A stretch of DNA of 64,000 bases from an uncultured Flavobacteriales bacterium (lineage in GTDB: Bacteria > Bacteroidota > Bacteroidia > Flavobacteriales_G > Salibacteraceae), in the NCBI GenBank assembly GCA_937899835.1, contig CALCCE010000094.1, positions 1 through 64,000 on the forward strand, given 5' to 3'. Of the stretch, positions 2,443-26,347 are shown one piece after another. A program made the position numbers and the translations under genes. The notes under the pieces were generated by a model. It did no database searches and was not told where the DNA came from. It saw only the letters and a list, made by a program, of their open reading frames with translations. Every line of letters begins with the position of its first letter. Position 1 is the first letter of the stretch.

Positions 2443-3281
2443 CTTCGCTTCAAGGTTTCTAAATAGGCAATCATGCCCTCAGCCAACCAATCGGCTACGG
2501 CCTGTCGGTTCTTTTCTACAATAAAGCGCTTTTGATCCAAAGGGTTTCGCAAGTTGCCCAATTCAATATATACCGCCGTTGGGCTGGTTTCCCGGAGCAT
2601 GTGTAAGTCACGCGCCACTACTTTTCCGGTATATCCCCTTCCTTTTTGAAACTTCTGGTACTTGGCACGAATGGTTCTTTGCATGGTCAAGGCCAGCTTT
2701 TTGCCCGATTTGCTACGACTATCGTGGTAAAAAAACATGTCTACCCGCTCTTTGGTGCCCCGGGAGTCTACATGCAGAATGACCGCAATTTGGCGGCTGG
2801 CGGTTGGCTTGCGCTTGCTGTACAGGTTGTTGATGGCGATCACCCGCTGGTCTAAGCGTGGAATTTGTCCCAGCGGAATGGTTTGCTCCTTCCAACAAAC
2901 TTCATCTTTATCGCATTCCAAATAGGGTTGCGACCGAATTCCATCATCGGGGTCCCTTACCACTAAGTAAACGCTGGCATCGTGCGACAATAACCTCCTG
3001 GCCAGCCGCAAGGAGATGTCGTAAGCATATTCATCTTCACACAAGGTATGACCATTCAGCTCGGCTACCGCTCCGGGATCAGGACCACCATGACCACTTA
3101 CCACATAAAATACCACACCGGCCAGGCTACTGTCTACAATGGTCACCTTTTCGTGCTTCTCGCCAAAAATGGGAAAGGTGCGCACGTTCTGCTGGCCAGC
3201 CAGCGGCAACGATACTCCCCATAACAAAATCAGGAGGCTAAGCGAAAGCAAGGGTTTCCATTTGGACAAAACCATGGCCAC
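2439..3281 (-). CDS. N-acetylmuramoyl-L-alanine amidase (Amidase_3)
   Basis: A 280-residue exported amidase that would cleave the bond between N-acetylmuramate and L-alanine in peptidoglycan. A hydrophobic signal segment covers about 9-29. Zn ligands of the Amidase_3 fold can be placed: His64 (SGHGGPDPG), an acidic residue at 82 or 84, His170 (ILHVDSRG) and a catalytic Glu near 240 (YIELGNLRN). The first motif reads SGHGG instead of the usual DPGHGG. ATG codons at residues 1 and 3 are both possible starts. No LysM or SPOR domain is present. Convergent overlap of four bases with the preceding gene. Confidence 0.88.
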   Translation of the reverse strand: MAMVLSKWKPLLSLSLLILLWGVSLPLAGQQNVRTFPIFGEKHEKVTIVDSSLAGVVFYVVSGHGGPDPGAVAELNGHTLCEDEYAYDISLRLARRLLSHDASVYLVVRDPDDGIRSQPYLECDKDEVCWKEQTIPLGQIPRLDQRVIAINNLYSKRKPTASRQIAVILHVDSRGTKERVDMFFYHDSRSKSGKKLALTMQRTIRAKYQKFQKGRGYTGKVVARDLHMLRETSPTAVYIELGNLRNPLDQKRFIVEKNRQAVADWLAEGMIAYLETLKRS

Positions 3282-3365
3282 AAATTTCTAAGGAAAGAAG
3301 GAATGGGCTTGGGGTGTTGCGGATGAGTTTTTTACAACCCATTGTGAAACAACGCTCCAACGCCA

Positions 3366-3971
3366 CTAATTGGAGGCTTGCAAACAGCGGGCCGTTATCC
3401 ATTGGCCTTGCCATGCGCTTTGGGGAATCGGTTTTCCCGCACAGTCGAGGTAATTGCCTTGAGCATCTTTGGCCAATATCCACAACTCCCCCGATTGAAT
3501 GGCCTCAAGGATGCGCTGGTGCAACTCTTGGTGAGTGATCGCTTCGCCCTTGGCGACCAATGCTGCGCCCGCCTGGTTGTTTTTCAAATCCATCTCCATG
3601 GCAGCTCGGTCGTGCCATCCGTCCGATTGGCCTTTGCGGGAAGCACGATGGTTGGCTTTTTCGTGGGCTTTGCCTAAGCTGATGGCTTTGCGAGGACCAA
3701 TTTCCTGCGCCAACCGTGCCATCCACCAGGCATGACGATAAGCATCTACCCTACCGCCCTGCCCGTCTCCATCCAAAACAGGGCTGTTCAACAAGGAATC
3801 GGAGCGGAATCGCGCTTCTTGCGAAATCTTTTGGGCTTTAGCCGCTGCCATAGGGTGCCAACACACCCAGCGCTTTTCGGGCCAACTGAGTTGTTTGAAT
3901 TGCCCCCATTTCCCTTCCTGCGCCAAAAGGCCAATGGGAAAGCACATCAATACTGCTACAAGCCATCGCAT
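3366..3971 (-). CDS. Secreted DUF6973-like protein
   Basis: 201 residues with an N-terminal signal peptide (residues 1-17, ending LLAQ). The central part (about 70-145) has the pattern DAYRHAWWMARLAQEIG, then AHE and MDLKNNQAG, which resembles the DUF6973 family in which Arg-His, His-Glu and Asp-x-x-Asn residues are conserved and may bind metal. I assign the family from memory of this pattern, not from a search. The biological role is unknown. It lies between the amidase and purL on the same strand but with gaps of about 40-85 bases. Confidence 0.65.
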   Translation of the reverse strand: MRWLVAVLMCFPIGLLAQEGKWGQFKQLSWPEKRWVCWHPMAAAKAQKISQEARFRSDSLLNSPVLDGDGQGGRVDAYRHAWWMARLAQEIGPRKAISLGKAHEKANHRASRKGQSDGWHDRAAMEMDLKNNQAGAALVAKGEAITHQELHQRILEAIQSGELWILAKDAQGNYLDCAGKPIPQSAWQGQWITARCLQASN

Positions 3972-4014
3972 GCAGCTAAGATAAGGTGTTTGAAGAGCTT
4001 CTATTCGCTCCAGC

Positions 4015-6240
4015 TCACAAACGAGCCGCTAAAGAGTTGTGGAACCACTCAGCGTAATCCTGAATGTCGCCAAAAGCCTGGTCATCGATCCGAATTTCGC
4101 TTTTGGTTACGTGCCCCAACAAGGTGAATGGAGTACCTGCATTGGCCAACAGGTCGACAAAATCGCCTTCGCGTACCTGATCTACGGTGACCACTACCCG
4201 ACTTTGCGCTTCGCCAAACAAGAAGGCGTCCGGACGCAATTCACTGTCGGTAGTGATGTCGAAGCCAAAACCGGAGGTGAATCCTTTTTCGGCCAAGGTG
4301 ACAAACAAACCACCATCGGCACAATCGTGGGCGGAACGCACTAACCCTGCGGCAATGAGTTGGCGCAGTGAGGCTTGCAGTTGCAATTCTTCGTCCAAAT
4401 CGAAATGAGGAGCCGGTGAGTTGCGTACACCGTGCCAGCCTACCAGGTATTCCGAAGAAGCGATATCGTTTTGCGAACGACCAATCAGGAAGATCAAATC
4501 TCCCTTGCTTTTATAAGGTATAGTGGTGCCCTTCTTTTTGTCGGGTACCAATCCGATCATTCCGATGGTTGGAGTCGGGAAAACCGGTTCCACTTTTCCA
4601 CCGATATTGCTTTGGTTGTAGAAGCTCACATTGCCTCCGGTAACCGGGGTTTGAAACTTGCGACAGGCTTCTCCCATACCTTTAATAGCACCTACAAATT
4701 GCCAGTATACTTCAGGTACATACGGGTTGCCAAAATTGAGGCAGTTGGTAATGGCACTCGGCTCACCACCGGAACAGGAAATGTTGCGTGCCGCCTCTGC
4801 TACTGCAATCGCAGTACCTTGCTCTGGATCGGCGTGCACGTAACGTGCATTGCAATCTACCGTTACGGCCAAGGCTTTGTCGGTGCCCTTCAGGTTGACA
4901 ATGCCGGCATCGGTAGGACCATTGGTCGACATGTTGACGGTGCCTACCATGGAATCGTATTGCTCGGTCACCCATCGCTTAGAAGCGATGTTAGGGTTCT
5001 GCATGAGCGATTCTGCTACCGCACGCAGGTCGGTGGGTTCTTCAATTTGATCGATGGAGAACTTTTTGGCTTCAGCAAAGTAAGCCGGTTCCTTGAATTC
5101 GCGTTCGTATACCGGAGCACCACCACCCAATACTAAGGTATCGGCGGGTACTTCGGCCACCAGGTCGCCGTCCATAAAATAGCGAAGTTGATTGCCTTCG
5201 GTCACTACTCCGATTTCCACACAGTTGAGGTCCCACTTTTCAAAAATGGCATTTACCTCCTCTTCTCGTCCTTTTTTCACCACCACGAGCATCCGCTCCT
5301 GGCTTTCGGAAAGTAGAATTTCGAAAGGCACCATTCCCTCTTGGCGGGTAGGCACTTTGTCCAGTTGGATGTCCATGCCGCATCCGCCTTTGGCCGACAT
5401 TTCGGAAGAAGAACAGGTGATGCCGGCTGCACCCATGTCTTGCATACCGATGATGGCATCGGTTTCAGCGAGTTCCAAAGAGGCTTCCAACAGCAATTTC
5501 TCCTGAAAAGGATCACCTACCTGAACCGATGGCAAATCTTTAGCGGAATCTTCGTTGATATCGTCGGAGGCAAAGGTGGCTCCGTGAATTCCATCTTTTC
5601 CGGTGGAGGAACCCACAATGAAAACGGGGTTGCCCACACCATGTGAAGTGGCGGAAATGGTTTTGTCGGCGTTGCAAATTCCCACCGACATGGCATTCAC
5701 CAAGGGATTGGTATTGTATACTTCGTCGAAGAACACTTCTCCCCCCAACACCGGGATACCAAACGAGTTGCCGTAATCGCCAATGCCTTTCACTACGCCT
5801 TTCACCAACCATTTGGTGCGGTCGAGCTCCAGGTCGCCAAAGCGCAGGCTGTTGAGCTGTGCCACCGGCCGTGCCCCCATGGTAAAAATGTCGCGGTTGA
5901 TTCCTCCCACACCAGTAGCTGCTCCTTGATAGGGCTCGATGGCTGATGGGTGGTTGTGTGACTCAATTTTAAAAGCACAAGCTAAGCCGTCACCAATATC
6001 TACCAGACCGGCATTTTCTTCTCCGGCCTCGGCCAACATGTGTGGTCCTTCTTTTGGAAGGGTTTTTAACCACTTGATAGAATTCTTGTAAGAACAGTGC
6101 TCCGACCACATGACGGAGTAAATGCTCAACTCGGTAAAGTTGGGAGTACGTCCCAAAATGCCTTTGATCTTTTCAAATTCTTCGGGCAAAAGACCGAGTT
6201 TTTTCGCGGTTTCTACGGTTACGGTAGTGTTATCAGCCAT
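4015..6240 (-). CDS. purL: Phosphoribosylformylglycinamidine synthase subunit PurL
   Basis: A 741-residue small-type PurL. It makes formylglycinamidine ribonucleotide from FGAR and ammonia with ATP in step four of purine synthesis. Diagnostic segments are WSEHCSYKNS at 46-54, IESHNHPSA at 92-100 followed by the glycine-rich GAATGVGGI at 107-113, and the duplicated AIRS-like halves with VTGGNVSFYN in the second half. The length is that of the three-subunit type, so separate PurS and PurQ are needed; neither is in this window. A minus-strand -7 element TACATTTG at 6279-6286 would give a 32-nt leader. It appears to be a single-gene unit. Confidence 0.97.
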   Translation of the reverse strand: MADNTTVTVETAKKLGLLPEEFEKIKGILGRTPNFTELSIYSVMWSEHCSYKNSIKWLKTLPKEGPHMLAEAGEENAGLVDIGDGLACAFKIESHNHPSAIEPYQGAATGVGGINRDIFTMGARPVAQLNSLRFGDLELDRTKWLVKGVVKGIGDYGNSFGIPVLGGEVFFDEVYNTNPLVNAMSVGICNADKTISATSHGVGNPVFIVGSSTGKDGIHGATFASDDINEDSAKDLPSVQVGDPFQEKLLLEASLELAETDAIIGMQDMGAAGITCSSSEMSAKGGCGMDIQLDKVPTRQEGMVPFEILLSESQERMLVVVKKGREEEVNAIFEKWDLNCVEIGVVTEGNQLRYFMDGDLVAEVPADTLVLGGGAPVYEREFKEPAYFAEAKKFSIDQIEEPTDLRAVAESLMQNPNIASKRWVTEQYDSMVGTVNMSTNGPTDAGIVNLKGTDKALAVTVDCNARYVHADPEQGTAIAVAEAARNISCSGGEPSAITNCLNFGNPYVPEVYWQFVGAIKGMGEACRKFQTPVTGGNVSFYNQSNIGGKVEPVFPTPTIGMIGLVPDKKKGTTIPYKSKGDLIFLIGRSQNDIASSEYLVGWHGVRNSPAPHFDLDEELQLQASLRQLIAAGLVRSAHDCADGGLFVTLAEKGFTSGFGFDITTDSELRPDAFLFGEAQSRVVVTVDQVREGDFVDLLANAGTPFTLLGHVTKSEIRIDDQAFGDIQDYAEWFHNSLAARL

Positions 6241-16874: not shown

Positions 16875-17504
16875 ATGTATACTAACGCCCGAAAATCATT
16901 GATCGTAGAAAGCAGTGGCTTTTTACTCAATCACTTCCCCGTCCCTCAATTTAAGCTACAACAAGGTGAAGTGATTGGTCTTAACATTGGCGCTGGCGCC
17001 CACTTTTTTCAACTTGAAAAAGAAATCGTCCACCGCCTTACCGGAGAAATCAAATGCTCTGGTGTGCACCTCCATCAGCGAATGGCCTACGCTGAACCTC
17101 TATTAGAAAGGTGGTACCACCGCATGTTTTTGTCTCAAAAGATCAAAAACTACTGGCTGGAGCAAACTGGATCGAAACTGCACAAGCAACATCCTGTGCT
17201 TTCTGCCCTTCAAATTGAAGCGGACTTGCCCATTGAACGCCTCAATTGGAGTCAACGCAAATGGCTATCACTGTTTGCCCATTTCGAGCAGACTACTACT
17301 GTCATTTTCAACCTTCAAGGTTTAGGACCAAGGGCAGCCGATCAAACCATGTTGAAGGTCCGTGATTTTGTAGATTGTGGAAAGGCCGCCTTTCTAATTG
17401 ACAGCTTTGACGACCAGGCACAGAATTGCGATCGTTTCTATTCGCTGGAAATGTTTCAGCAGCCTTCTTTCAAGCGAGAGCCAGCCTTGTCGCTGGTTTC
17501 GTAA
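16875..17504 (+). CDS. Degenerate ABC-ATPase-like protein, catalytic motifs lost
   Basis: 209 residues. The layout follows an ABC ATPase: QQGEVIGLNIGAGAHFF (29-45) matches the strand and Walker A of GExxGLxGPNGAGKST but lacks the Lys-Ser/Thr; LTGEIKCSG follows at 55-63 as in LTGLIKPTSG; NWSQRKWLSL (124-133) sits where LSGGQ would be; VIFNLQGLGPRAADQ (143-157) matches a Walker B/D-loop in which Asp-Glu became Asn-Leu; IDSFDDQAQNCDRFYSLE (175-192) matches the H-loop region and CDR helix, with Ser177 at the H-loop position. So it keeps the fold but probably not ATP hydrolysis. Role unknown. No transporter gene is next to it. Confidence 0.7.
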   Translation: MYTNARKSLIVESSGFLLNHFPVPQFKLQQGEVIGLNIGAGAHFFQLEKEIVHRLTGEIKCSGVHLHQRMAYAEPLLERWYHRMFLSQKIKNYWLEQTGSKLHKQHPVLSALQIEADLPIERLNWSQRKWLSLFAHFEQTTTVIFNLQGLGPRAADQTMLKVRDFVDCGKAAFLIDSFDDQAQNCDRFYSLEMFQQPSFKREPALSLVS

Positions 17505-17538
17505 GCCTATCATGAGTATTAAGCTGGATCAAACTGCC

Positions 17539-17546
17539 TATTTTTG
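17539..17546 (+). promoter_or_regulatory. -7 element of the GNAT gene
   Basis: TATTTTTG, a full TAnnTTTG match. It overlaps an upstream ATG at 17544, so the translation start must be the ATG at 17565, with a leader of about a dozen bases. Confidence 0.5.
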
Positions 17547-17564
17547 CAGTTCATCCCGCTTTGT

Positions 17565-18092
17565 ATGGCACCGACCTCTATCCGACCCATTGAACTCGCT
17601 GATGCGCCTGGTGTGGCCGGTATCTACAACCATTACATTCGAAATACGGCCACTACGTTTGAAGAGAAAGTCGTTTCCAATCGCGAAATGGAACGGCGAA
17701 TAGCTGATCAACCAGAGTCGCTTCCGTGGTTGGTGGTGGTTGAGGAAGGCCAGGTAGTAGGCTACGCCCTTGCCAGCAACTGGAAATCCCGGTGTGCCTA
17801 CGCCAACTCGGTTGAAAGTTCTATTTACCTGCATCCTCAGCACACGGGCAAGGGTTGGGGAGGCTTGCTCTACCCAGCCCTGCTGAATCAACTGTTTACT
17901 TTGGGGTATCATACCATTATTGGGGGCATTGCGCTACCTAATCCGGCAAGTATTCGACTGCATGAAAAACTCGGCTTCGAAAAGGTGGGCCAGTTTCGGG
18001 AAGTAGGAAATAAATTCAACAGTTGGATCGATGTGGGCTATTGGCAGCTTTTGGTACCCACCAACGAAGGCGTATCTGATTCTTTTTCGTAA
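17565..18092 (+). CDS. GNAT N-acetyltransferase, phosphinothricin acetyltransferase-like
   Basis: 175 residues from the ATG at 17565. The N-terminus (TSIRPIELADAPGVAGIYN) and FEEKVVS are typical of the PAT/Bar/YncA group, and the acetyl-CoA loop QHTGKGWGGLL (near 87-97) is a clear R/Q-x-x-G-x-G/A motif. The C-terminal strand GFEKVGQFREVGNKF and WIDVGYWQL fit the same branch. Such enzymes acetylate amino groups of small molecules such as methionine sulfoximine. Substrate not determined. Confidence 0.88.
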   Translation: MAPTSIRPIELADAPGVAGIYNHYIRNTATTFEEKVVSNREMERRIADQPESLPWLVVVEEGQVVGYALASNWKSRCAYANSVESSIYLHPQHTGKGWGGLLYPALLNQLFTLGYHTIIGGIALPNPASIRLHEKLGFEKVGQFREVGNKFNSWIDVGYWQLLVPTNEGVSDSFS

Positions 18093-18138
18093 GCCATTCA
18101 AGACATGTTGTCAGGGAAAAGAAAGGGTCCCACTTTTG

Positions 18139-18154
18139 CTTAACTTCCGTTAAG
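18139..18154. repeat. Short inverted repeat upstream of the GAF gene
   Basis: CTTAAC, four bases, GTTAAG. It lies about 75 bases before the GAF start. It could be a regulator site or the tail of transcription from the GNAT gene, but lacks a T-run. Confidence 0.3.
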
Positions 18155-18230
18155 AAAATCGGAGAATTTCGGCGGGTTCATAGAATATTCGCACGACTTA
18201 TCCGATCTTTATTAAAGATACACGTGTACC

Positions 18231-20606
18231 ATGGAAGAGCCTATACCTTACACTGAACTCCCTTTTAAATCTGCCTTGAGCTTCGAGCCATTGATTCTTT
18301 TTTGGAAAGAGCGCTTGGAGGCTGCCAACATTGCAGAGCGCTTGTTGGCAGAAAAAGTATTGGAACAATGGAACGAAGCCACTGAGCTTCACGGTGAAAT
18401 TGAAGACCGTTCTGTACTCGCCAAACACGAGTCATTGGTAGAACTGCTGCTCACGGCAGTGGTGGCTCCAGCTTCTGAAGAAAGCGAACTGTTGGCTGTT
18501 TCACCACCTTTTGACATGGTACCCATCAAAAGCTCGCAGGGTTTCATTGACATGCTTTCGTGGGCTACCCAGGATACGCAGTTTTTCAATAATATGAATC
18601 AGGAAGAGCTGTTCAACAAAAAGTTGCTCAACGCCTGCTCTTACATCTTACAAGATCACTATGATATTCATCTGCCGGTAGAACAGGATTTTACCTTTTC
18701 TATCCGGGAACCTGAAACGGGACTCAACCGTTACTTTCAAATTGTTTTCAGCAAACGCTTCTCCGTATCGGTATGCGATGGTGCTCTTCCCAAGTTGACC
18801 GATAATGACATTGAAGCTTTAAAGCAAAACATCAACGACATCGACTTTTGGCTCAAAAAAATTCCATTGAAACGTTTTCGCTTTACTGGAATTATTGCCT
18901 TACGCTTCGTAGAAACTACTGATCAGGAGGTACTTTCTGCCCTCAAAAACGACCTGCTTTCTAAAGACGCGGTGGTCTCCAAAACCAAAATTAAGAGCCT
19001 GGAACAAGGCATCCGGGATTTCCTAAAAATGCCTAACCTCCAAATCGGAGTTGGCTCTTCCAGTGGCAAAATGAACAACTCTTCGTACATGCTGCGCAGG
19101 TTGTGGAACGGATTGGTGCCGCAAGAGGCTATGGTGAAAATCTGTGATCAACTAAACGGCTCCATTTACGAAACGGCGGCTCTAACCGGCCAAATGGTGG
19201 TAGTAGAGGATTTGAAAAAAACCAAAATGCCTTCTATCATCGAGGAGGCACTGATGGAGCAAGGAATTCGCAGCCTAATTATCGCGCCTGTTTTCAACGA
19301 AAAAGAGTTGGTGGGCATGTTGGAATTGGGATGTGTCACCCCTGGTTCGCTTAATCCTATTAAGGCGGCCAAGGTGAAGGAATTGATGCCCCTCTTTTCG
19401 GTGGCGATGAGCCGTAGTGTAGAGGAAATGGAAAACGAGGTGCAGGCGGTGATCAAAAGCAACTACACGGCGATACATCCCACGGTAGAATGGCGCTTTG
19501 AAGAAGCGGCCCTGAAGCGGCTCGATCAAATGTCGGAAGAAGAAAATCCTCCGGTTGAACGCATTATTTTCCCCGAAGTTTACCCACTTTATGGGCTAAC
19601 GGACATTCGCGGGTCATCGGTCCAGCGCAACTCGGCCATTCAAAAAGATTTGATAGAGCACTTGAAGCTGATCAAAAAAGTGATGCAATCGATCCGCCAG
19701 AAAAAGCACTTGCCCATTCTGGAAGAGGTGAGTTATCGCGTAAGCAAACACAATGCTCACCTGAAACAAGGATTGAACTCTGGCGATGAGGTGGTGGTAT
19801 TGGACTTTATCCACAACGAGGTGGAGCCTATGCTCAATCACTTAAAGAGTAGCAATACGGAATTAGCAACTGCCATTAATGGATATTTTAAAAAGCTTGA
19901 TCCGGAATTGGGAACCATTTACCGGCATCGAAAAGCTTATGAGGACAGCATCACCTTGATCAACGATACGGTGTCTGCTTACATCGATGAGGAAGAGGCG
20001 GCAGCTCAGGAAATGTTTCCACACTACTTTGAAAAGTACAAAACAGATGGTGTGGATTACAACATGTATGTGGGCGCCTCTTTGGTCCCGGATCACAAAT
20101 TTGATCCGATCTACCTGCGCAATTTCCGACTGTGGCAACTCATGATGATGGTGGGCGTAAGTCGCTTGACGCACGGTTTGATGGAGCGCCTGCCGGTGCC
20201 GCTGCGTACTACCGAACTCATCCTGGCGTACCATTCCCCGCTTTCCATCCGTTTTCGGCTGGACGAGAAAAAGTTTGATGTAGACGGGGCCTATAACATG
20301 CGCTACGAAATTGTGAAAAAACGTATCGATAAGGCTTACATCAAAAACACGGAAGAACGGGTGACCCAACCCAGTAAAATTGCCATTATCTACAACCAAG
20401 GGGCAGAAGCGCAAGAGTATTTGAAATTCATTGAGTACCTCACCGAAATGCAGTACTTGAAAGAAGGTGTAGAGCAATTGGAACTGGAGCCGCTACAGGG
20501 CGTTACCGGCCTGATGGCATTGCGGGTAGAGGTAAATTTCGAAACCCAGGGACAAGACAACAAAGGATTGGGAGATATCCTCAATTTGATCGAAGAGGCC
20601 GGGTAA
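18231..20606 (+). CDS. Large GAF-domain protein, cytoplasmic
   Basis: 791 residues without signal or membrane segments. Residues about 280-420 form a GAF domain: an N-terminal helix, WNGLVPQEAM, VVVEDLKKTKMPSIIEEALMEQGIRSLIIAPVFNEKELVGMLELG. This sensor domain usually binds small molecules. Flanking parts are helical and acidic (for example LEEVSYRVSKHNAHLKQG and the region near 600-700), without a kinase, cyclase or phosphatase motif that I can see. It looks like the orphan GAF proteins conserved in Bacteroidota. Followed 114 bases later by the QueF-like gene, so the two may form a unit. Confidence 0.75.
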   Translation: MEEPIPYTELPFKSALSFEPLILFWKERLEAANIAERLLAEKVLEQWNEATELHGEIEDRSVLAKHESLVELLLTAVVAPASEESELLAVSPPFDMVPIKSSQGFIDMLSWATQDTQFFNNMNQEELFNKKLLNACSYILQDHYDIHLPVEQDFTFSIREPETGLNRYFQIVFSKRFSVSVCDGALPKLTDNDIEALKQNINDIDFWLKKIPLKRFRFTGIIALRFVETTDQEVLSALKNDLLSKDAVVSKTKIKSLEQGIRDFLKMPNLQIGVGSSSGKMNNSSYMLRRLWNGLVPQEAMVKICDQLNGSIYETAALTGQMVVVEDLKKTKMPSIIEEALMEQGIRSLIIAPVFNEKELVGMLELGCVTPGSLNPIKAAKVKELMPLFSVAMSRSVEEMENEVQAVIKSNYTAIHPTVEWRFEEAALKRLDQMSEEENPPVERIIFPEVYPLYGLTDIRGSSVQRNSAIQKDLIEHLKLIKKVMQSIRQKKHLPILEEVSYRVSKHNAHLKQGLNSGDEVVVLDFIHNEVEPMLNHLKSSNTELATAINGYFKKLDPELGTIYRHRKAYEDSITLINDTVSAYIDEEEAAAQEMFPHYFEKYKTDGVDYNMYVGASLVPDHKFDPIYLRNFRLWQLMMMVGVSRLTHGLMERLPVPLRTTELILAYHSPLSIRFRLDEKKFDVDGAYNMRYEIVKKRIDKAYIKNTEERVTQPSKIAIIYNQGAEAQEYLKFIEYLTEMQYLKEGVEQLELEPLQGVTGLMALRVEVNFETQGQDNKGLGDILNLIEEAG

Positions 20607-20720
20607 TTGGTCTTTGGTTTTTATCGTCTCTTTTTAGGTAGCCTGGTTAGGACTTCTTTTAAGTGAGTTGCTGTATCTTCGCGGTTGGACACAGGTATTA
20701 ATACAAATTGACCGATCGCC

Positions 20721-21164
20721 ATGAGCAATGTAGCAGAAGTAATGCTGTTTGATAAGATTGATGTTTCGTACCTCAAAGCCCTACCGAATCCCGCGAATGG
20801 AGCTTATGAGATCAAGGTAAAAATTCCTGAGTTTACTTTTTTGGGGGTTCGGAAACAACCTGATTTTGCCACCATTTACCTCACGTTTTATCCGAAGAAA
20901 AAGATCATCGAGTTGAAATCGATGAAGGAATACGTGTATCAATTGCGCAACATTGTAGTGTCCTACGAACGCCTCATCAACATCATTTACGAACACTTGC
21001 TGGAAGTCTATGAGCCCGACCGTTTGCGCGTTGTAATGATTTGCAACCCTCGTGGGGGCATCAGTTCCAAACTGACCATCGATTCCGACTGGGGAGCACG
21101 CGGTGGACAAGAGAAGTACAGCGACTGGGGCAACAACCAGGACGTTTGGGAAGTGATGATGTAA
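20721..21164 (+). CDS. QueF-like protein (preQ1 synthase fold) lacking the catalytic cysteine
   Basis: 147 residues. The QueF signature PEFTxxCxxTGQPDFATIY is recognisable as PEFTFLGVRKQPDFATIY at 36-53, followed by ELKSMK at 64-69 and PRGG at 110-113. These are the nucleotide- and NADPH-binding parts of the T-fold. The nucleophilic Cys that forms the thioimide with preQ0 is Gly42, the following segment is one residue shorter, and the catalytic His near 82 is Tyr (SYERL; Glu83 is kept). Asp48, the acid of the motif, is retained. Cys108 is the only Cys and sits next to PRGG. Normal nitrile reduction is therefore unlikely. Not a simple truncation. Confidence 0.72.
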   Translation: MSNVAEVMLFDKIDVSYLKALPNPANGAYEIKVKIPEFTFLGVRKQPDFATIYLTFYPKKKIIELKSMKEYVYQLRNIVVSYERLINIIYEHLLEVYEPDRLRVVMICNPRGGISSKLTIDSDWGARGGQEKYSDWGNNQDVWEVMM

Positions 21165-21212
21165 AGCTTTCGCGCGCTCTTCCTCCACTACTTTTCGCCT
21201 CAACAGATTTTT

Positions 21213-21220
21213 TACCTTTG
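21213..21220 (+). promoter_or_regulatory. Candidate -7 element upstream of the barrel gene
   Basis: TACCTTTG, full consensus, 16 bases before the ATG at 21236. No good TTG at the expected distance. The leader would be about 8-10 bases. Confidence 0.4.
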
Positions 21221-21235
21221 GGTAGACCCATTCCT

Positions 21236-21919
21236 ATGGAACTTCCCTCCACACACCTGACGCCATGTCGGGGCTATATCGATGTGTTTACTCGATGGTG
21301 CCTCATTGGCCTGTTGGTTTCATTCTTTTGCCTCCAAGGTCATAAAGCAGTGAGCCAGGAGGAGGAAGAGGGGTACTACATCTATAATACGCTAAAGGCG
21401 GGTTTTGGACTTCCTTATGGTGGCTTAGGCCTCAACTACGAATTCGGTATTCATCGATATTCTCTCTATGGTGGTTTTGGCTATCGGTGGAGCCGTGGCA
21501 CCATCACCAATCCTGATCCGGCCTTCCCTGATAGTGTGGTGGAAATAAAAATTGACGACAGCTTCAATTACGGAGTCGGTTTACACTACCATTTCATCAA
21601 TTCTCAAAACCCCTTTCAGCCTCGGGTGGGAGTCTATGCCGGATGGGTAGGAAATTACTACGACCGCAGAATCGGCCTTGATGATTACAATCATTCGGTC
21701 TATGGATGGGCATTTACCCTGGGAGCGGAATTTTATACGGGTCCCATCATCGCAGATTTAGACCTCATATTGGTCCCGGCCGGCGACTTTGTGTTCAACC
21801 AGGAGGAGCACCCCTATTACACCCGAACCTTGGTAAAATTATCCGCAGGGGTGGGGATTGACTTGGGAATGATATTCTTCAAGCGAAAGCGAAAACGCTT
21901 TGACATCAACTACCAGTAG
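21236..21919 (+). CDS. Outer-membrane beta-barrel protein
   Basis: 227 residues from the ATG at 21236. The open frame runs back to 21041 inside the QueF-like gene, but the signal segment follows this Met (hydrophobic near 20-32, likely cleavage after AVSQ at about 41). The mature part starts with an acidic EEEEEG stretch, then repeated amphipathic strands with Tyr/Phe/Gly and hairpin turns (YSLYGGFGYRW, FNYGVGLHYHF, VGVYAGWVGNYY, FTLGAEFYTG, AGVGIDLG). It is a typical outer-membrane barrel of the phylum. Close downstream of the QueF-like gene; no family assigned. Confidence 0.7.
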   Translation: MELPSTHLTPCRGYIDVFTRWCLIGLLVSFFCLQGHKAVSQEEEEGYYIYNTLKAGFGLPYGGLGLNYEFGIHRYSLYGGFGYRWSRGTITNPDPAFPDSVVEIKIDDSFNYGVGLHYHFINSQNPFQPRVGVYAGWVGNYYDRRIGLDDYNHSVYGWAFTLGAEFYTGPIIADLDLILVPAGDFVFNQEEHPYYTRTLVKLSAGVGIDLGMIFFKRKRKRFDINYQ

Positions 21920-22084
21920 GCGGCTTTCTTGAAAAATATTAGAGCCGGAACTCCGTTAAAAAACTCACTATGAATTGCTTAACATCCGTACCCCACCGGA
22001 TACCAGGCAATTTTTCAATTTTTTTCTTTCCAAAGTGTATCTTTTGTCTCCATGCAGGTTATGCGGATGTAATCAGTACCCAAG

Positions 22085-22705
22085 ATGATCCGAACTGCAG
22101 AGACAAGTATAACCCCAAATCGTATGGCCGCCCGATCCTCCTACCATCAAAGTCAGGGACAAATTGCCCAGGACAAGGAATGGATTGAGGCGGCTAAATC
22201 CGATCCTGCCCGCTTCGAGCCACTTTACAACAAGTACCACGAAGCTATTTTTCGTTTTGTTTATCAGCGCCTCAACGACCAAGAGCAAGCTTTTGATGTT
22301 ACTTCTCAAGTATTTCTCAAGGCCTTGACCAACTTGCACCGCTATGAATTCAGAGGCTTGCCATTTAGTTCATGGCTTTTCCGAATTGCTATTAGCGAGG
22401 TGAACAAACTTTTTAAACAGAACAAGGCGAAACGTACGGTCAACATCGATAGCCTGCAACTGAAAGGCTTGCTGGAGGAGATGGAATCGGATGAAAACGA
22501 AGACCGGCTGCGCCTGATGATTGATGCCATTGCAGGCCTCAAACCGGAGGAATTGACCTTGGTAGAAATGCGCTTTTTTGAGCAGCGCCCTTTTAAAGAA
22601 ATTGCGGACATCCTGCAATTGTCAGAATCCAATGCCAAGGTGCGGCTGTATCGTATTTTGGAGCGCCTGAGAAAACGCATCACCGCAAAATTGAACCGAG
22701 CATGA
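22085..22705 (+). CDS. ECF-type RNA polymerase sigma factor
   Basis: 206 residues. Sigma region 2 (about 45-110; LYNKYHEAIFRFVYQRL, DVTSQVFLKAL, SSWLFRIAISEVNKLFK) and region 4 (about 150-205; LKPEELTLVEMRFFEQRPFKEIADILQLSESNAKVRLYR) are clear. The linker is short and acidic. It fits an extracytoplasmic-function sigma factor. Met at residue 14 (22124) is an alternative start. Its stop overlaps the ATG of the membrane-anchored gene 22702 (ATGA), and that protein is the likely anti-sigma or sensor, although it lacks a recognised anti-sigma domain. Confidence 0.9.
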   Translation: MIRTAETSITPNRMAARSSYHQSQGQIAQDKEWIEAAKSDPARFEPLYNKYHEAIFRFVYQRLNDQEQAFDVTSQVFLKALTNLHRYEFRGLPFSSWLFRIAISEVNKLFKQNKAKRTVNIDSLQLKGLLEEMESDENEDRLRLMIDAIAGLKPEELTLVEMRFFEQRPFKEIADILQLSESNAKVRLYRILERLRKRITAKLNRA

Positions 22706-24582
22706 CCCAGCATAAACATCCCGTAAACATTGATCGCCCGGAACTAAGTTCTGCGGAGATCGCGAAACGCCGAGATTTCGGTGCGGTAATTGCCGGTCTT
22801 TCTGCTCCGGTGGCCACTGTGCCTTTTTATAAAAAGGGGTGGTTCCTCACCACTTGTGGAGTGACTGCTGTGGCCCTCATGATCGGTGGCGCAGTATGGC
22901 TTACTTCCGCTTCTAATCAAGATCCGATTGAACCGATAGTGGAGTCCGTACCTGGTGAAACAACACCTGACTTGCCGGAACCAACACCCGTGGCCCCGCT
23001 TATTCAACCCGCTTTTGACCACTTGGCCATTGCTCCGGTGTTGCATACTGTGAAAGGCAATGAGGCCCGTACCCTCGAATTCCCAAGCGGCACCAAAGTA
23101 CACTTGCCAGCTAATGCTTTTCTCGATGAGCTGGGCTATCAGGTGGGTGGTGACCTTACGTTTTCCTTCCGCGAGTTTCACGACCCTGCCGACTTTTTAG
23201 TAAGCGGCATTCCGCTCGAATACGATTCGGCGGGCAGCAAACACCGCTTTGCCTCAGCGGGAATGGTGGAAATTACCGCCTCTAAAAATGGAAAGGAACT
23301 GTTTACCAATCCTGAGGCACCAATTGAAGTAGAAATGGTTTCGCCAAAGGGCCACGGCCACTACAACTTGTATTTCCTGGATAAGGAGCAAGCCAACTGG
23401 GTGTCAGAAGGCGAACCTCGGGTGATCAAGTATGCCGAAGCAGTGATGGAAGAGGAGTCTCGAACCAGTGCCCCGGTTGCTGGTGGGGTGCATACCCGCA
23501 CCATGGTTCAGGGAAATCAAATCATCGAAAACAGTGTAGAAATGCTCTTTCCAGATTCGCTTTCCATGGATATAGACGATCCTACGCTGCAACTGCGCGA
23601 TCGCTACCAGAACTATCGATACGAATTGGATGGTGCGCTAAAGGCGCTAAAGGATTATGCTTTGCGGGAACCGATAGAACCTCAACTGATCAGCCCTGAA
23701 TTTTTCAATTTTAACATTGATGTGGATGCCAGGCAATTTCCGGAGTTGGCCAATTTCAAAGATTTGCGCTTCGAAATCAGAGACCCTGATACGCGGTTCT
23801 CTGCGGATTTTTACGAGGTCGTTTGGCAGGCTGCTGAATTGCAATCCAATCGCCCTGAGCCTAATTTCAAGCTCTTTTTAACCAAAGAAAAACGGGTGGA
23901 GGAATTTGTAGTTTATCCGGTTTTCGAAGAGAGTAATCGCAACCTGGCCATGGGGGCTTTTCAAGAAAAAATGGCGGATTACCTCGATCAGGTTCAAGTG
24001 ATGAAGGCTGACATTCAGGCGCTGGAAGAAAAGGTAAGCACCAGCAAAAGCGAACTGAACGAGGCGTTGGATGCCTTTGCGCTGCAACAAAAAGAGCTTC
24101 TTGCCAAAAGAGAAGCTTACCGACAGGAAATGCAACGCAAAGCGGAAGCCGCCCGATTGGCTTATCAAAAAAAGTTGGAGGAACAACGCAGCCAGGTGAA
24201 CAGCAGGAACATGATCTTCGCCTTTCAAGTGACCAACTTTGGCATCTACAATTGCGATCGGGTCATTTCTTCCCCTGGATATGTTCCCGTTAACCCACAG
24301 TTCACGATGAACAACAAACCTTTCCAACCGGCCAATTTTCATCATGTAGACTATACCAACAACAACCTCACCAGCTACTACGGAGTGCAACAATTCAAAA
24401 TTCATCCAAAGGAGAAAAATGTGTTGGTGGTCGTGTTGGAAGACGGGCGCGTGGCTTACTGTTCTCCCGAATCCTTGCAAGGCATTCGTAGGGGGGCCAA
24501 CGCTTTGCCACTCGAAGTTTCTCAAAAGAAGTTCGCCAGTATTTCTGAAGTAAGGCACTTTCTTAATGAATTGGCGATATGA
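22702..24582 (+). CDS. Membrane-anchored periplasmic protein, probable sigma-factor partner
   Basis: 626 residues. A cytoplasmic tail of about 45 residues is followed by one membrane segment (46-69), a Pro-rich stretch (75-105) and a periplasmic part. Residues about 105-230 resemble the ZU5-like beta domain often found in Bacteroidota (LEFPSGTKVHLPANAFLDELG). A long helix, highly charged and coiled-coil-like, spans about 420-500. The topology of short inner tail plus single TM plus sensor is that of anti-sigma factors, and the ATGA overlap with the sigma gene is strong context. The inner tail, however, has no ASD zinc motif. Function inferred only from context. Confidence 0.7.
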   Translation: MTQHKHPVNIDRPELSSAEIAKRRDFGAVIAGLSAPVATVPFYKKGWFLTTCGVTAVALMIGGAVWLTSASNQDPIEPIVESVPGETTPDLPEPTPVAPLIQPAFDHLAIAPVLHTVKGNEARTLEFPSGTKVHLPANAFLDELGYQVGGDLTFSFREFHDPADFLVSGIPLEYDSAGSKHRFASAGMVEITASKNGKELFTNPEAPIEVEMVSPKGHGHYNLYFLDKEQANWVSEGEPRVIKYAEAVMEEESRTSAPVAGGVHTRTMVQGNQIIENSVEMLFPDSLSMDIDDPTLQLRDRYQNYRYELDGALKALKDYALREPIEPQLISPEFFNFNIDVDARQFPELANFKDLRFEIRDPDTRFSADFYEVVWQAAELQSNRPEPNFKLFLTKEKRVEEFVVYPVFEESNRNLAMGAFQEKMADYLDQVQVMKADIQALEEKVSTSKSELNEALDAFALQQKELLAKREAYRQEMQRKAEAARLAYQKKLEEQRSQVNSRNMIFAFQVTNFGIYNCDRVISSPGYVPVNPQFTMNNKPFQPANFHHVDYTNNNLTSYYGVQQFKIHPKEKNVLVVVLEDGRVAYCSPESLQGIRRGANALPLEVSQKKFASISEVRHFLNELAI

Positions 24583-25064
24583 AGATTTCTTTCAACTGGT
24601 GTTTCATTTTCGGCATTGCAAGCGCTTTGCTCTTGTTGAGTGGATGTGGCGCCAATAAAAATATTCCGCAAGCGGGTACGATTTGGGTAGAAAAGTTTGC
24701 TGATGCCTCTGAAAAAGACCTGCTCTACGGCGATTGGGTCTTGGTAAAACGAAAGGTTCGTGGTTTCTGGGGCACATTGCCCATGGAGCCTAGTGACAGA
24801 AGACGCACGCCTAACCTGGAAGACCTCAGTTCTGATTTCCTCGAACTAGCCGCGGTTTCCAACCGGGAAGCACCCCGATGGCAACTTGAACCCAAAGGCG
24901 GACGGTTCATGTTAGAGATTTATGAGATCGCTCCGGCAACCGGTGAAAAAGTTATTTTGCAACGTTTCAAGGTCCTCAAATTGGACAAGGAAAACCTGGT
25001 GTTGAAGCAAAAAAATAGAGGCAAAAGAGTCATCAGTCATTACAAACGACCGGAAATCAAATAG
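24579..25064 (+). CDS. Small lipoprotein of unknown function
   Basis: 161 residues with a lipoprotein signal (hydrophobic 7-20, lipobox LSGC with Cys23). The mature part has WVLVKRKVRGFWGTL and beta-rich segments. Its ATG overlaps the stop of the upstream gene (ATGA), so sigma factor, anchored protein and lipoprotein are one coupled unit. I do not recognise the family. A role in envelope sensing with the sigma pair is an inference from context. Confidence 0.7.
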   Translation: MKISFNWCFIFGIASALLLLSGCGANKNIPQAGTIWVEKFADASEKDLLYGDWVLVKRKVRGFWGTLPMEPSDRRRTPNLEDLSSDFLELAAVSNREAPRWQLEPKGGRFMLEIYEIAPATGEKVILQRFKVLKLDKENLVLKQKNRGKRVISHYKRPEIK

Positions 25065-25110
25065 TTTCTTTCACCTCAATCTTCTCACAATGAAGGTGTA
25101 AAGTTGACGT

Positions 25111-25118
25111 TACTTTTG
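25111..25118 (+). promoter_or_regulatory. Candidate -7 element of the M23-transpeptidase gene
   Basis: TACTTTTG, consensus match, 44 bases before the ATG at 25163. The -33 element is not obvious. Confidence 0.4.
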
Positions 25119-25162
25119 CGGAGGTTGGAATTACAATCTGAAACTTCCAATTTGCACCGCGG

Positions 25163-26347
25163 ATGTTTGTTACGCTACTCCTCTCTGTTTGCATTGGTTT
25201 ACTCGCCTCGGCTGACGCCTCTCCATTCGAACCAGCTTCTACCGATGCCTCTATTCGGGAACAACTTTTTCACCCCTTACTCGCCGATGGTTTCGACTTT
25301 CCGATTGGCAGCCCAAAGGCGACCGGTTATTACACCGACCTAAAGACGGGAATGCAATACGAAGGATGGTACATTGCCACCCAAACCGGAGAGGAATACT
25401 CCCTCGGCCTGCACACGGGGGAAGATTGGAACGGCCGTGGGGGCAGCAACACGGATCTTGGCCAGCCCGTGAGGTCCATTGGTAGAGGCAAAGTCGTGGC
25501 TGCCGACAACTACGGTGCTCCATGGGGCAATGTGGTGATGATTGAGCATTACTACCTCGAAAATGCCACCGTGAAACGGATTTTTTCGCTCTATGCCCAC
25601 TTGGAAGAATTGTTTGTAGACGAATCGGATACCGTAGGAAAACGCCAACAGATCGGTACCATTGGAACGGGTGATGGAGCGTACCTGGCTCACCTGCACT
25701 TGGAAATTCGTAAGGAAAACATGGCCGATTATCCAGTGGACTACTGGCCCAGCGCGGAAGGCAAAGACCGAGAATGGCTCATGGAGCATTACCTTGCCCC
25801 TACTTTTTTCATCAAAAAACACCGGCGACTCCCGGTTCCCTCCACTGCCCAGCATTGTTTGGTGGTTTACAAAAGCGACTATCGTTTGGAACATTGGCAG
25901 TTGGGAGATCGGGTGAACACTTATTCCATAGCCCTCAGTCAAGCACCCCTTGGCCATAAACAGAAAGAGGGCGATCTCCGGCTACCTGAGGGTGCCTACC
26001 ACATCAACCAAAAAAGTCGGGGACCCTTTGAGGGAACTTTTGGGGCTTTTTTCGGTCCTGCATGGATGCGCCTGAGTTATCCTAACCTGTGGGATGCAAA
26101 AGCAGGCCTGGCGAAAGGAACCATTTCACAAGCGGCAGCGGATAAGATTGAAGCAGCATGGAAAGCGGGAAAAATGCCGCCTAAAAACACGGCATTAGGC
26201 GGAGGCATTGGCATCCACGGCTGGGCAGGCGATTGGCCGGAAAAGGAGCGCCATCTAACCTGGGGATGCATCAGCATGCAGAACGAAGACCTGGATGTAT
26301 TTTATGATCAGGTTCCGGTAGGGACCTTGGTGTTTATTTATCCGTAA
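25163..26347 (+). CDS. M23 peptidase fused to an L,D-transpeptidase (YkuD)
   Basis: 394 residues, signal peptide 1-20. The N-terminal half is a LytM/M23 endopeptidase with all zinc residues: His84 and Asp88 (HTGED), His146 (YAHL), His177/His179 (HLHLEI). The C-terminal half is a YkuD domain: LVVYKSDY near 233-240, GIHGWAGDW with His352, and the nucleophile Cys369 in LTWGCI (T-x-G-C). The first domain cuts peptide crossbridges; the second would form 3,3 or lipoprotein-type linkages through a Cys thioester. Both active sites look intact, so one secreted protein may both cut and join peptidoglycan. It stands alone after the sigma-factor unit. Confidence 0.85.
   Translation: MFVTLLLSVCIGLLASADASPFEPASTDASIREQLFHPLLADGFDFPIGSPKATGYYTDLKTGMQYEGWYIATQTGEEYSLGLHTGEDWNGRGGSNTDLGQPVRSIGRGKVVAADNYGAPWGNVVMIEHYYLENATVKRIFSLYAHLEELFVDESDTVGKRQQIGTIGTGDGAYLAHLHLEIRKENMADYPVDYWPSAEGKDREWLMEHYLAPTFFIKKHRRLPVPSTAQHCLVVYKSDYRLEHWQLGDRVNTYSIALSQAPLGHKQKEGDLRLPEGAYHINQKSRGPFEGTFGAFFGPAWMRLSYPNLWDAKAGLAKGTISQAAADKIEAAWKAGKMPPKNTALGGGIGIHGWAGDWPEKERHLTWGCISMQNEDLDVFYDQVPVGTLVFIYP

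Follow-up and report, generated by a model that had tools for sequence, protein, structure and literature searches.

What can a relative of the nitrile reductase QueF do without its catalytic cysteine? The question is posed by a gene in the window (the whole 64,000-nt stretch of DNA analysed, from an uncultured Flavobacteriales bacterium), which a first-pass annotation had read as a single QueF homologue that had lost this residue. The gene and the residues discussed below lie at the following window positions.

20721..21164, + strand: gene for a Cys-less QueF-fold protein, a proposed T-fold methylene-tetrahydrofolate reductase (ATG to TAA, 147 aa)
20844..20846, + strand: codon of Gly42, which adjoins the site of the absent catalytic Cys (Gly in 120/120 family members)
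20862..20864, + strand: Asp48, counterpart of QueF Asp62 and candidate general acid (120/120; Asp62 is QueF-defining in the excerpted text of PMC5372742)
20910..20933, + strand: QueF motif E64-L-K-S-M-K-E-Y71, NADPH-binding in QueF (E64 and K69 in 120/120; motif as given in the excerpt of PMC5372742)
20961..20972, + strand: S81-Y82-E83-R84, in which E83 is the counterpart of the substrate-anchoring Glu97 of QueF (119/120, the remaining one being X; role of Glu97 from the excerpt of PMC5372742) and Ser81, Tyr82 and Arg84 are family-specific (120/120 each)
21042..21044, + strand: Cys108, a variable position (91 Cys and 29 Phe of 120)
21051..21059, + strand: R111-G-G113, common to QueF (120/120)
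21072..21092, + strand: L118-T-I-D-S-D-W124, a family signature (not in the canonical QueF rows of the alignment)

A conserved Cys-less family on the QueF fold

The window protein scored 66.8 bits against PF14489 (QueF; cut-off 27.3) and 87.3 bits against TIGR03139 (QueF-II, NCBIfam ‘preQ(1) synthase’; cut-off 86.9), and because the latter score lies 0.4 bits above its cut-off, an automatic pipeline would probably misname the gene queF or ‘preQ(1) synthase’. PF14489 was the sole Pfam match at E up to 1, PF02219 (MetF) was not matched, the score against TIGR00063 (FolE) was 12.4 bits (cut-off 181.6), and the closest PDB relative by sequence was B. subtilis QueF (E 2e-17). In the loop PEFTFLGVRKQPDFA (PEFTFLG-VRKQPDFA, against PEFTSLCPxTGQPDFA in canonical QueF), the Cys column is empty and is followed by Gly42, leaving the loop one residue shorter, and the canonical F-H-E has become S-Y-E, with Tyr82 in place of the His and Glu83 retained. 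The QueF motif, E(S/L)K(S/A)hK(L/Y)(Y/F/W), is fitted at 7/8 positions; position 7 is E, where family members mostly have Q, E, L or H, and the Glu of the motif (Glu78 in QueF) is retained in 120/120.

Alignment of 120 distinct family members upheld what the first-pass annotation had noted about individual residues, namely the missing Cys with its shortened loop, the exchange of the later His for Tyr, and the retention of Asp48, the ELKS motif and RGG. The catalytic Cys was present in 0/120 members and Gly42 in 120/120, so that its absence from the window gene is neither chance nor a sequencing oddity; the annotation’s further point that thioimide chemistry is impossible is supported. Gly42, Asp48, Glu64, Lys69, Arg76, Ser81, Tyr82, Arg84, RGG and LTIDSDW were invariant or near-invariant over the 120, 38 columns were invariant among 46 diverse members, and dN/dS had a median of 0.04 and a maximum of 0.13 (34 close pairs of family members). 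Two of the annotation’s ideas did not survive: Cys108 is not a replacement nucleophile, because it is not conserved, and the protein is no isolated homologue that shed its Cys but one of an entire family, in which the pocket is invariant and family-specific.

A TIGR03139 search of 149 Bacteroidia genomes returned the Cys-less type in eight (G000, G007, G022, G023, G033, G064, G065 and G071) and canonical Cys-type QueF in ten; the other matches were weak (<36 bits) and were taken as GTP cyclohydrolase I, the five used in the tree being motif-checked. In this quick tree, a branch with SH-aLRT 98 separated the 46 Cys-less rows from 17 canonical QueF and 5 FolE sequences. A scan of GTDB contigs recovered 130 relatives, of which the best 80 were kept as bacterial loci; by record title, these best 80 came from Bacteroidota, Gammaproteobacteria (among them Pleionea and Aliikangiella), Deltaproteobacteria, Halanaerobiales and others. 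The family gene was also found on 47 viral contigs of IMG/VR. By alignment and tree, the Cys-less proteins are thus a conserved family that forms one clade apart from QueF and occurs in several bacterial phyla and in viruses.

An AF2 model of the window protein, built with 46 family sequences (pLDDT 87.3, pTM 0.83), matched best the C55A variant of B. subtilis QueF with preQ0 (Z 15.7, rmsd 3.2, 131 aligned), with Z 15.3 for the thioimide form of the same enzyme and with FolE and QueF-L as the next matches (Z about 13). The expectation that the fold would be kept was thereby borne out, the ligand-anchoring Glu included, and we regard the family, on sequence and modelled fold, as T-fold relatives of QueF. 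GTP cyclohydrolase I (FolE), an enzyme with a zinc site, shares the T-fold and pterin chemistry (Z up to 13.2), but in structural alignment is 10–18% identical to the window-protein model. The archaeosine synthase QueF-L (5JYX, Z 13.1) has the same fold and already shows that a relative of QueF can take on a new reaction, although, according to the excerpted text of PMC5485725, it retains its Cys (Cys21) and the thioimide, which the Cys-less family does not. Unimodular QueF (B. subtilis type, 4F8B/4FGC; TIGR03139) is closest, with the T-fold, ~35% identity in structural alignment, a QueF motif that fits at 7/8 positions, the Glu97 and Asp62 counterparts and RGG in common; the family differs from it in the missing Cys, the His-to-Tyr exchange, the shorter loop, the new SYER and LTIDSDW signatures, and a gene context of methionine rather than queuosine. 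The published definition of QueF, as it stands in the excerpt of PMC5372742, requires Cys55, Asp62, Glu97 and the QueF motif all together; because the Cys55 counterpart is absent, the window protein is not a QueF under this definition.

Methionine genes, riboswitches and the distribution of MetF

At the best 80 of 130 bacterial loci, the neighbours up to two genes away from the family gene were MetH (25 loci), CGS/HSD/MetX (9), MetE (1), ThyX (10), riboflavin synthase (8), RlmD/MnmH (11) and ferritin (5), with nothing recognised at 11 (Pfam and NCBIfam served to identify examples of each neighbour except ferritin, which was recognised by eye). In Cytophagales and Crocinitomix the family gene sits between the homocysteine and pterin/B12 halves of metH and often overlaps the first half by a few bases, and in one operon (L047) the order is metH-N, family gene, metH-C, metF. 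SAM riboswitches were found 5′ of these gene groups at 14/25 loci scanned (11/11 loci chosen for methionine neighbours and 3/14 in a mixed choice). A different arrangement was seen at L108 (3497–9000), where one of two cobalamin riboswitches precedes nrdD and the family gene and the other precedes metE; the B12-independent RNR and methionine synthase there are, to judge from this layout, apparently under joint control with the family gene. In Marinoscillum (L050, 10142–11074, − strand), a second, distant MetF-like ORF (phmmer 3.9e-8) adjoins the metF of a metH operon.

The window gene itself has no methionine-gene neighbour, and no riboswitch was found around it with Rfam at the gathering threshold (window positions 17000–26000). 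On its 5′ side lies a 791-aa ORF (18231–20606) whose end has a terminator-like site and which by eye appears sensor-like with a GAF-like stretch, and on its 3′ side an ORF running to 21919. Elsewhere in the same genome (G000), another contig (L211) carries a SAM riboswitch followed by metH-N, with the S-methyl_trans domain, and metH-C, with Pterin_bind, B12 and activation domains. Because this MetH is of the folate type, the genome, as read from its gene content, needs 5-methyl-THF; the search for MetF (PF02219) gave no candidate even at its first pass. In G244, a genome of the same family as G000, a SAM riboswitch precedes a split metH with the Cys-less gene between its halves, and the MetF match is weak.

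The folate pool is connected with the methyl cycle by methylene-THF reductase, whose substrate is also that of ThyX; MetF (PF02219) was therefore searched for in genomes with and without the family gene. The 41 carrier genomes of a first test consisted of seven of the eight from the 149-genome search (G064 omitted) and 34 distinct genomes from the 80 bacterial loci, hand-picked for taxonomic spread before MetF was examined; the 19 non-carriers were also hand-picked. MetF was present in 25/41 carriers and 18/19 non-carriers, hence lacking in 16/41 vs 1/19 (P-value 0.006, a weaker contrast than in the wider test below), and was present in none of the seven Bacteroidia carriers from the 149-genome search; MetF-less carriers included genomes recorded as Gammaproteobacteria, Cyclobacteriaceae and others. 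A MetF-less carrier that is in culture is Crocinitomix algicola. The family need not replace MetF, because 25/41 carriers keep a PF02219 protein, some of them in the same operon (L047).

A wider test covered 386 Bacteroidia genomes with a completeness of 90% or more (G000–G148 and G184–G420; the 41- and 386-genome sets overlap, G207, G362 and G033 equalling G169, G163 and G156, respectively, by matching contigs). Among these, 12 were carriers, and MetF was found in 356, MetH in 350 and the MetE N-domain in 39 (some weak), with 12 genomes having MetE only (excluding G348, a weak match at 4e-7). MetF was not found in 10/12 carriers (G000, G007, G022, G023, G033, G064, G065, G071, G199 and G207) vs 20/374 non-carriers (Fisher P-value 1e-10), in 10/12 vs 6/350 when only genomes with MetH or MetE were considered (P-value 5e-14), and in 9/10 vs 3/66 when counted by family (P-value 1.5e-8), although these P-values overstate independence because the genomes are related, and negatives for MetF, MetH and MetE were counted by eye, by elimination from the positives, and families by hand. 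All 12 carriers had a methionine synthase (MetE only in G007), and the two that kept MetF were G244 (9.8e-25) and G362. As a control, all ten genomes with canonical Cys-type QueF in the 149-genome set had MetF, and thus canonical QueF showed no such link.

Of the 20 MetF-less non-carriers, 14 had no methionine synthase by these models, and six (G140, G225, G247, G299, G321 and G414) had a synthase with neither MetF nor the family gene; some of these six may be assembly gaps, because relatives of several have MetF. Three genomes of one genus (G053, G225 and G247) have MetH and no Cys-less gene, with MetF absent or weak (5.9e-8 in G053), so that a further route to 5-methyl-THF, or gaps, are possible there.

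A proposed methylene-tetrahydrofolate reductase and competing readings

We consider it likely that the window protein, on its QueF/T-fold, reduces 5,10-methylene-tetrahydrofolate with NADPH and without a flavin, and so stands in for the non-homologous MetF as the supplier of 5-methyl-THF to methionine synthase. The basis in sequence and genomics is a Cys-less clade with the NADPH motif, the Glu and the Asp, its methionine and one-carbon neighbours, SAM-riboswitch operons, and the association with metF loss; of the first-pass suggestions, a pterin-like ligand and another T-fold reaction fit best. Several points count against the proposal: the conserved pocket is also compatible with other pterins or deazapurines, many carriers keep MetF and co-occurrence is no proof of activity, six genomes have a synthase with neither protein, the window gene and a number of bacterial and viral loci have no telling neighbour, and a QueE-like gene lies close to one viral member (L225). 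The proposed reaction and metabolic place are those of MetF/MTHFR, which differs in being a (beta-alpha)8 barrel with FAD (excerpt of PMC11094777), whereas the window protein matches the QueF Pfam alone. Mycobacterial flavin-free Mfr, as described in the same excerpt, is a precedent for direct reduction of methylene-THF by NAD(P)H via a 5-iminium ion, but it too is a (beta-alpha)8 barrel and not a T-fold.

In known methylene-tetrahydropterin reductases, including flavin-free Mfr, N10 is protonated, a 5-iminium ion forms and hydride passes to the exocyclic carbon (Gehl 2024, PMC11094777, excerpted text). In the Cys-less family, Glu83 would hold the pterin ring in the way that Glu97 of QueF holds preQ0, Asp48 or a different residue of the pocket would act as the acid that opens the imidazolidine of methylene-THF to give the 5-iminium ion, and NADPH, bound by the kept motif, would deliver hydride to the exocyclic carbon; by ring geometry, this carbon on pterin N5 would occupy the place of the C7-attached carbon that QueF reduces. 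The thioimide Cys would not be required, because the group to be reduced is an iminium from the outset rather than a nitrile; on our rationale this Cys would be superfluous and would only trap the acceptor.

We also favour, if with rather less assurance, a broader view in which this T-fold, flavin-free class of methylene-THF reductase arose independently, by derivation from a nitrile reductase that lost its nucleophile, and repeatedly displaced MetF in bacteria, while phages carry it alongside metK and SAH hydrolase as part of a phage-borne methyl cycle. Should the activity be shown, the family would be a new methylene-THF reductase class, so that this reaction would be known on two folds, the (beta-alpha)8 barrel and the T-fold, and an enzyme would be seen to have acquired a reaction through loss of a catalytic residue; it would also explain where 5-methyl-THF comes from in genomes with a folate-dependent methionine synthase and no MetF, put right the ‘preQ(1) synthase’ labels assigned automatically, and offer a reason for the presence of the family gene in some phages that have metK and SAH hydrolase. 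In the open literature (closed-access papers lie outside this coverage), we found no paper joining QueF and methylenetetrahydrofolate reductase and none on the QueF catalytic cysteine in Bacteroidetes, and papers on QueF with methionine synthase and MetH do not, by their titles and abstract starts, address this link; among the matches listed for QueF with methyltetrahydrofolate, the papers looked off topic.

Fold, motif and neighbourhood would equally fit another NADPH-dependent pterin or folate reductase that works for the methionine cycle and for ThyX, such as a dihydrofolate reductase or a quinonoid 5-methyl-dihydrofolate reductase repairing oxidised methyl-folate, and DHFR (PF00186) was indeed not found in four tested deltaproteobacterial-type genomes with an adjoining ThyX (G154, G158, G160 and G162). 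We nonetheless judge such a role unlikely, with DHFR present in 35/41 carriers and a repair function leaving the absence of MetF unexplained. Substitution for DHFR as a general role is rejected, because those 35 carriers, the window’s own genome among them, have DHFR.

Less probable still is a role without catalysis, in which the protein would bind 5-methyl-THF or a purine and assist or regulate methionine synthase. The position between the metH halves in Cytophagales, often overlapping the first, would suit such a partner, but the family gene also occurs beside MetE and on phages with MetK/SAHH, the NADPH motif is retained, and MetF-less genomes would be left without a source of methyl-THF.

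We attach even less weight to a deazaguanine enzyme, whether a preQ0 reductase working without Cys or through Cys108, or one with a related reaction. Several findings point that way: the TIGR03139 score lies barely above its cut-off, Tgt was present in 41/41 carriers, three carriers (G154, G158 and G162) have QueC without canonical QueF, a QueE-like gene (PHROG 2076, below the NCBIfam QueE cut-offs) lies near one viral member (L225), and on viral contig L118 a two-domain QueF (2944–3879) lies directly 5′ of the Cys-less gene (3983–4414), although this pairing may equally reflect two proteins with different jobs. Against them, 13/41 carriers also have canonical two-domain QueF, QueC above cut-off was not found in 25/41 carriers, and Cys108 is replaced by Phe in 29/120 members. 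Moreover, single-query phmmer detected neither QueC nor Tgt nor FolE in 141 loci (80 bacterial, 47 viral and 14 SAHH-derived; for FolE the set lacked a positive control), though QueC adjoins canonical QueF in L002–L005. In the window’s own genome, the search for a normal queF that the first-pass annotation had proposed found none besides the window gene, and Tgt was present with QueC not found. On balance, the family is not for queuosine.

A decaying, functionless queF, which loss of the catalytic residue would suggest if this copy were viewed alone, has next to no probability and is refuted by conservation, given a Cys loss common to all 120 distinct members, the 38 columns that never vary across 46 diverse members and the low dN/dS (median 0.04, at most 0.13).

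Family genes on viral contigs

Among the 47 viral loci, MetK/SAHH lay nearby in 6 and MetE in 1, and 17 had no telling neighbour. A pattern scan that used a single MetF from Bacteroidota as query gave no relative on viral contigs, and phmmer with the same single query gave none in 47 + 14 viral loci, though it recovered the bacterial MetF control loci. Isolate phages (INPHARED) held only distant relatives (9/50,697 records, 38.6–42.0% identity over part of the query); DpdL, reportedly a 7-carboxy-7-deazaguanine decarboxylase, was considered for the phage copies and not supported.

A contig found via its SAH hydrolase (L225, 2277–6556) carries a more distant member (151.9 bits), a second lineage, directly between MetK and SAHH in the contiguous order MetK, family gene, SAHH. 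Just 5′ of metK on this contig lies the QueE-like radical-SAM gene mentioned above (172.8 bits), which could indicate a deazaguanine link or a role in DNA modification. On another contig the order is MetK, DUF2452, family gene, MetE (L152, 3453–3899). The DUF2452 protein (PF10504, checked for L119) was a frequent viral neighbour (L116–L120, L122–L124, L153 and L155), and it may belong to the same pathway as the family gene.
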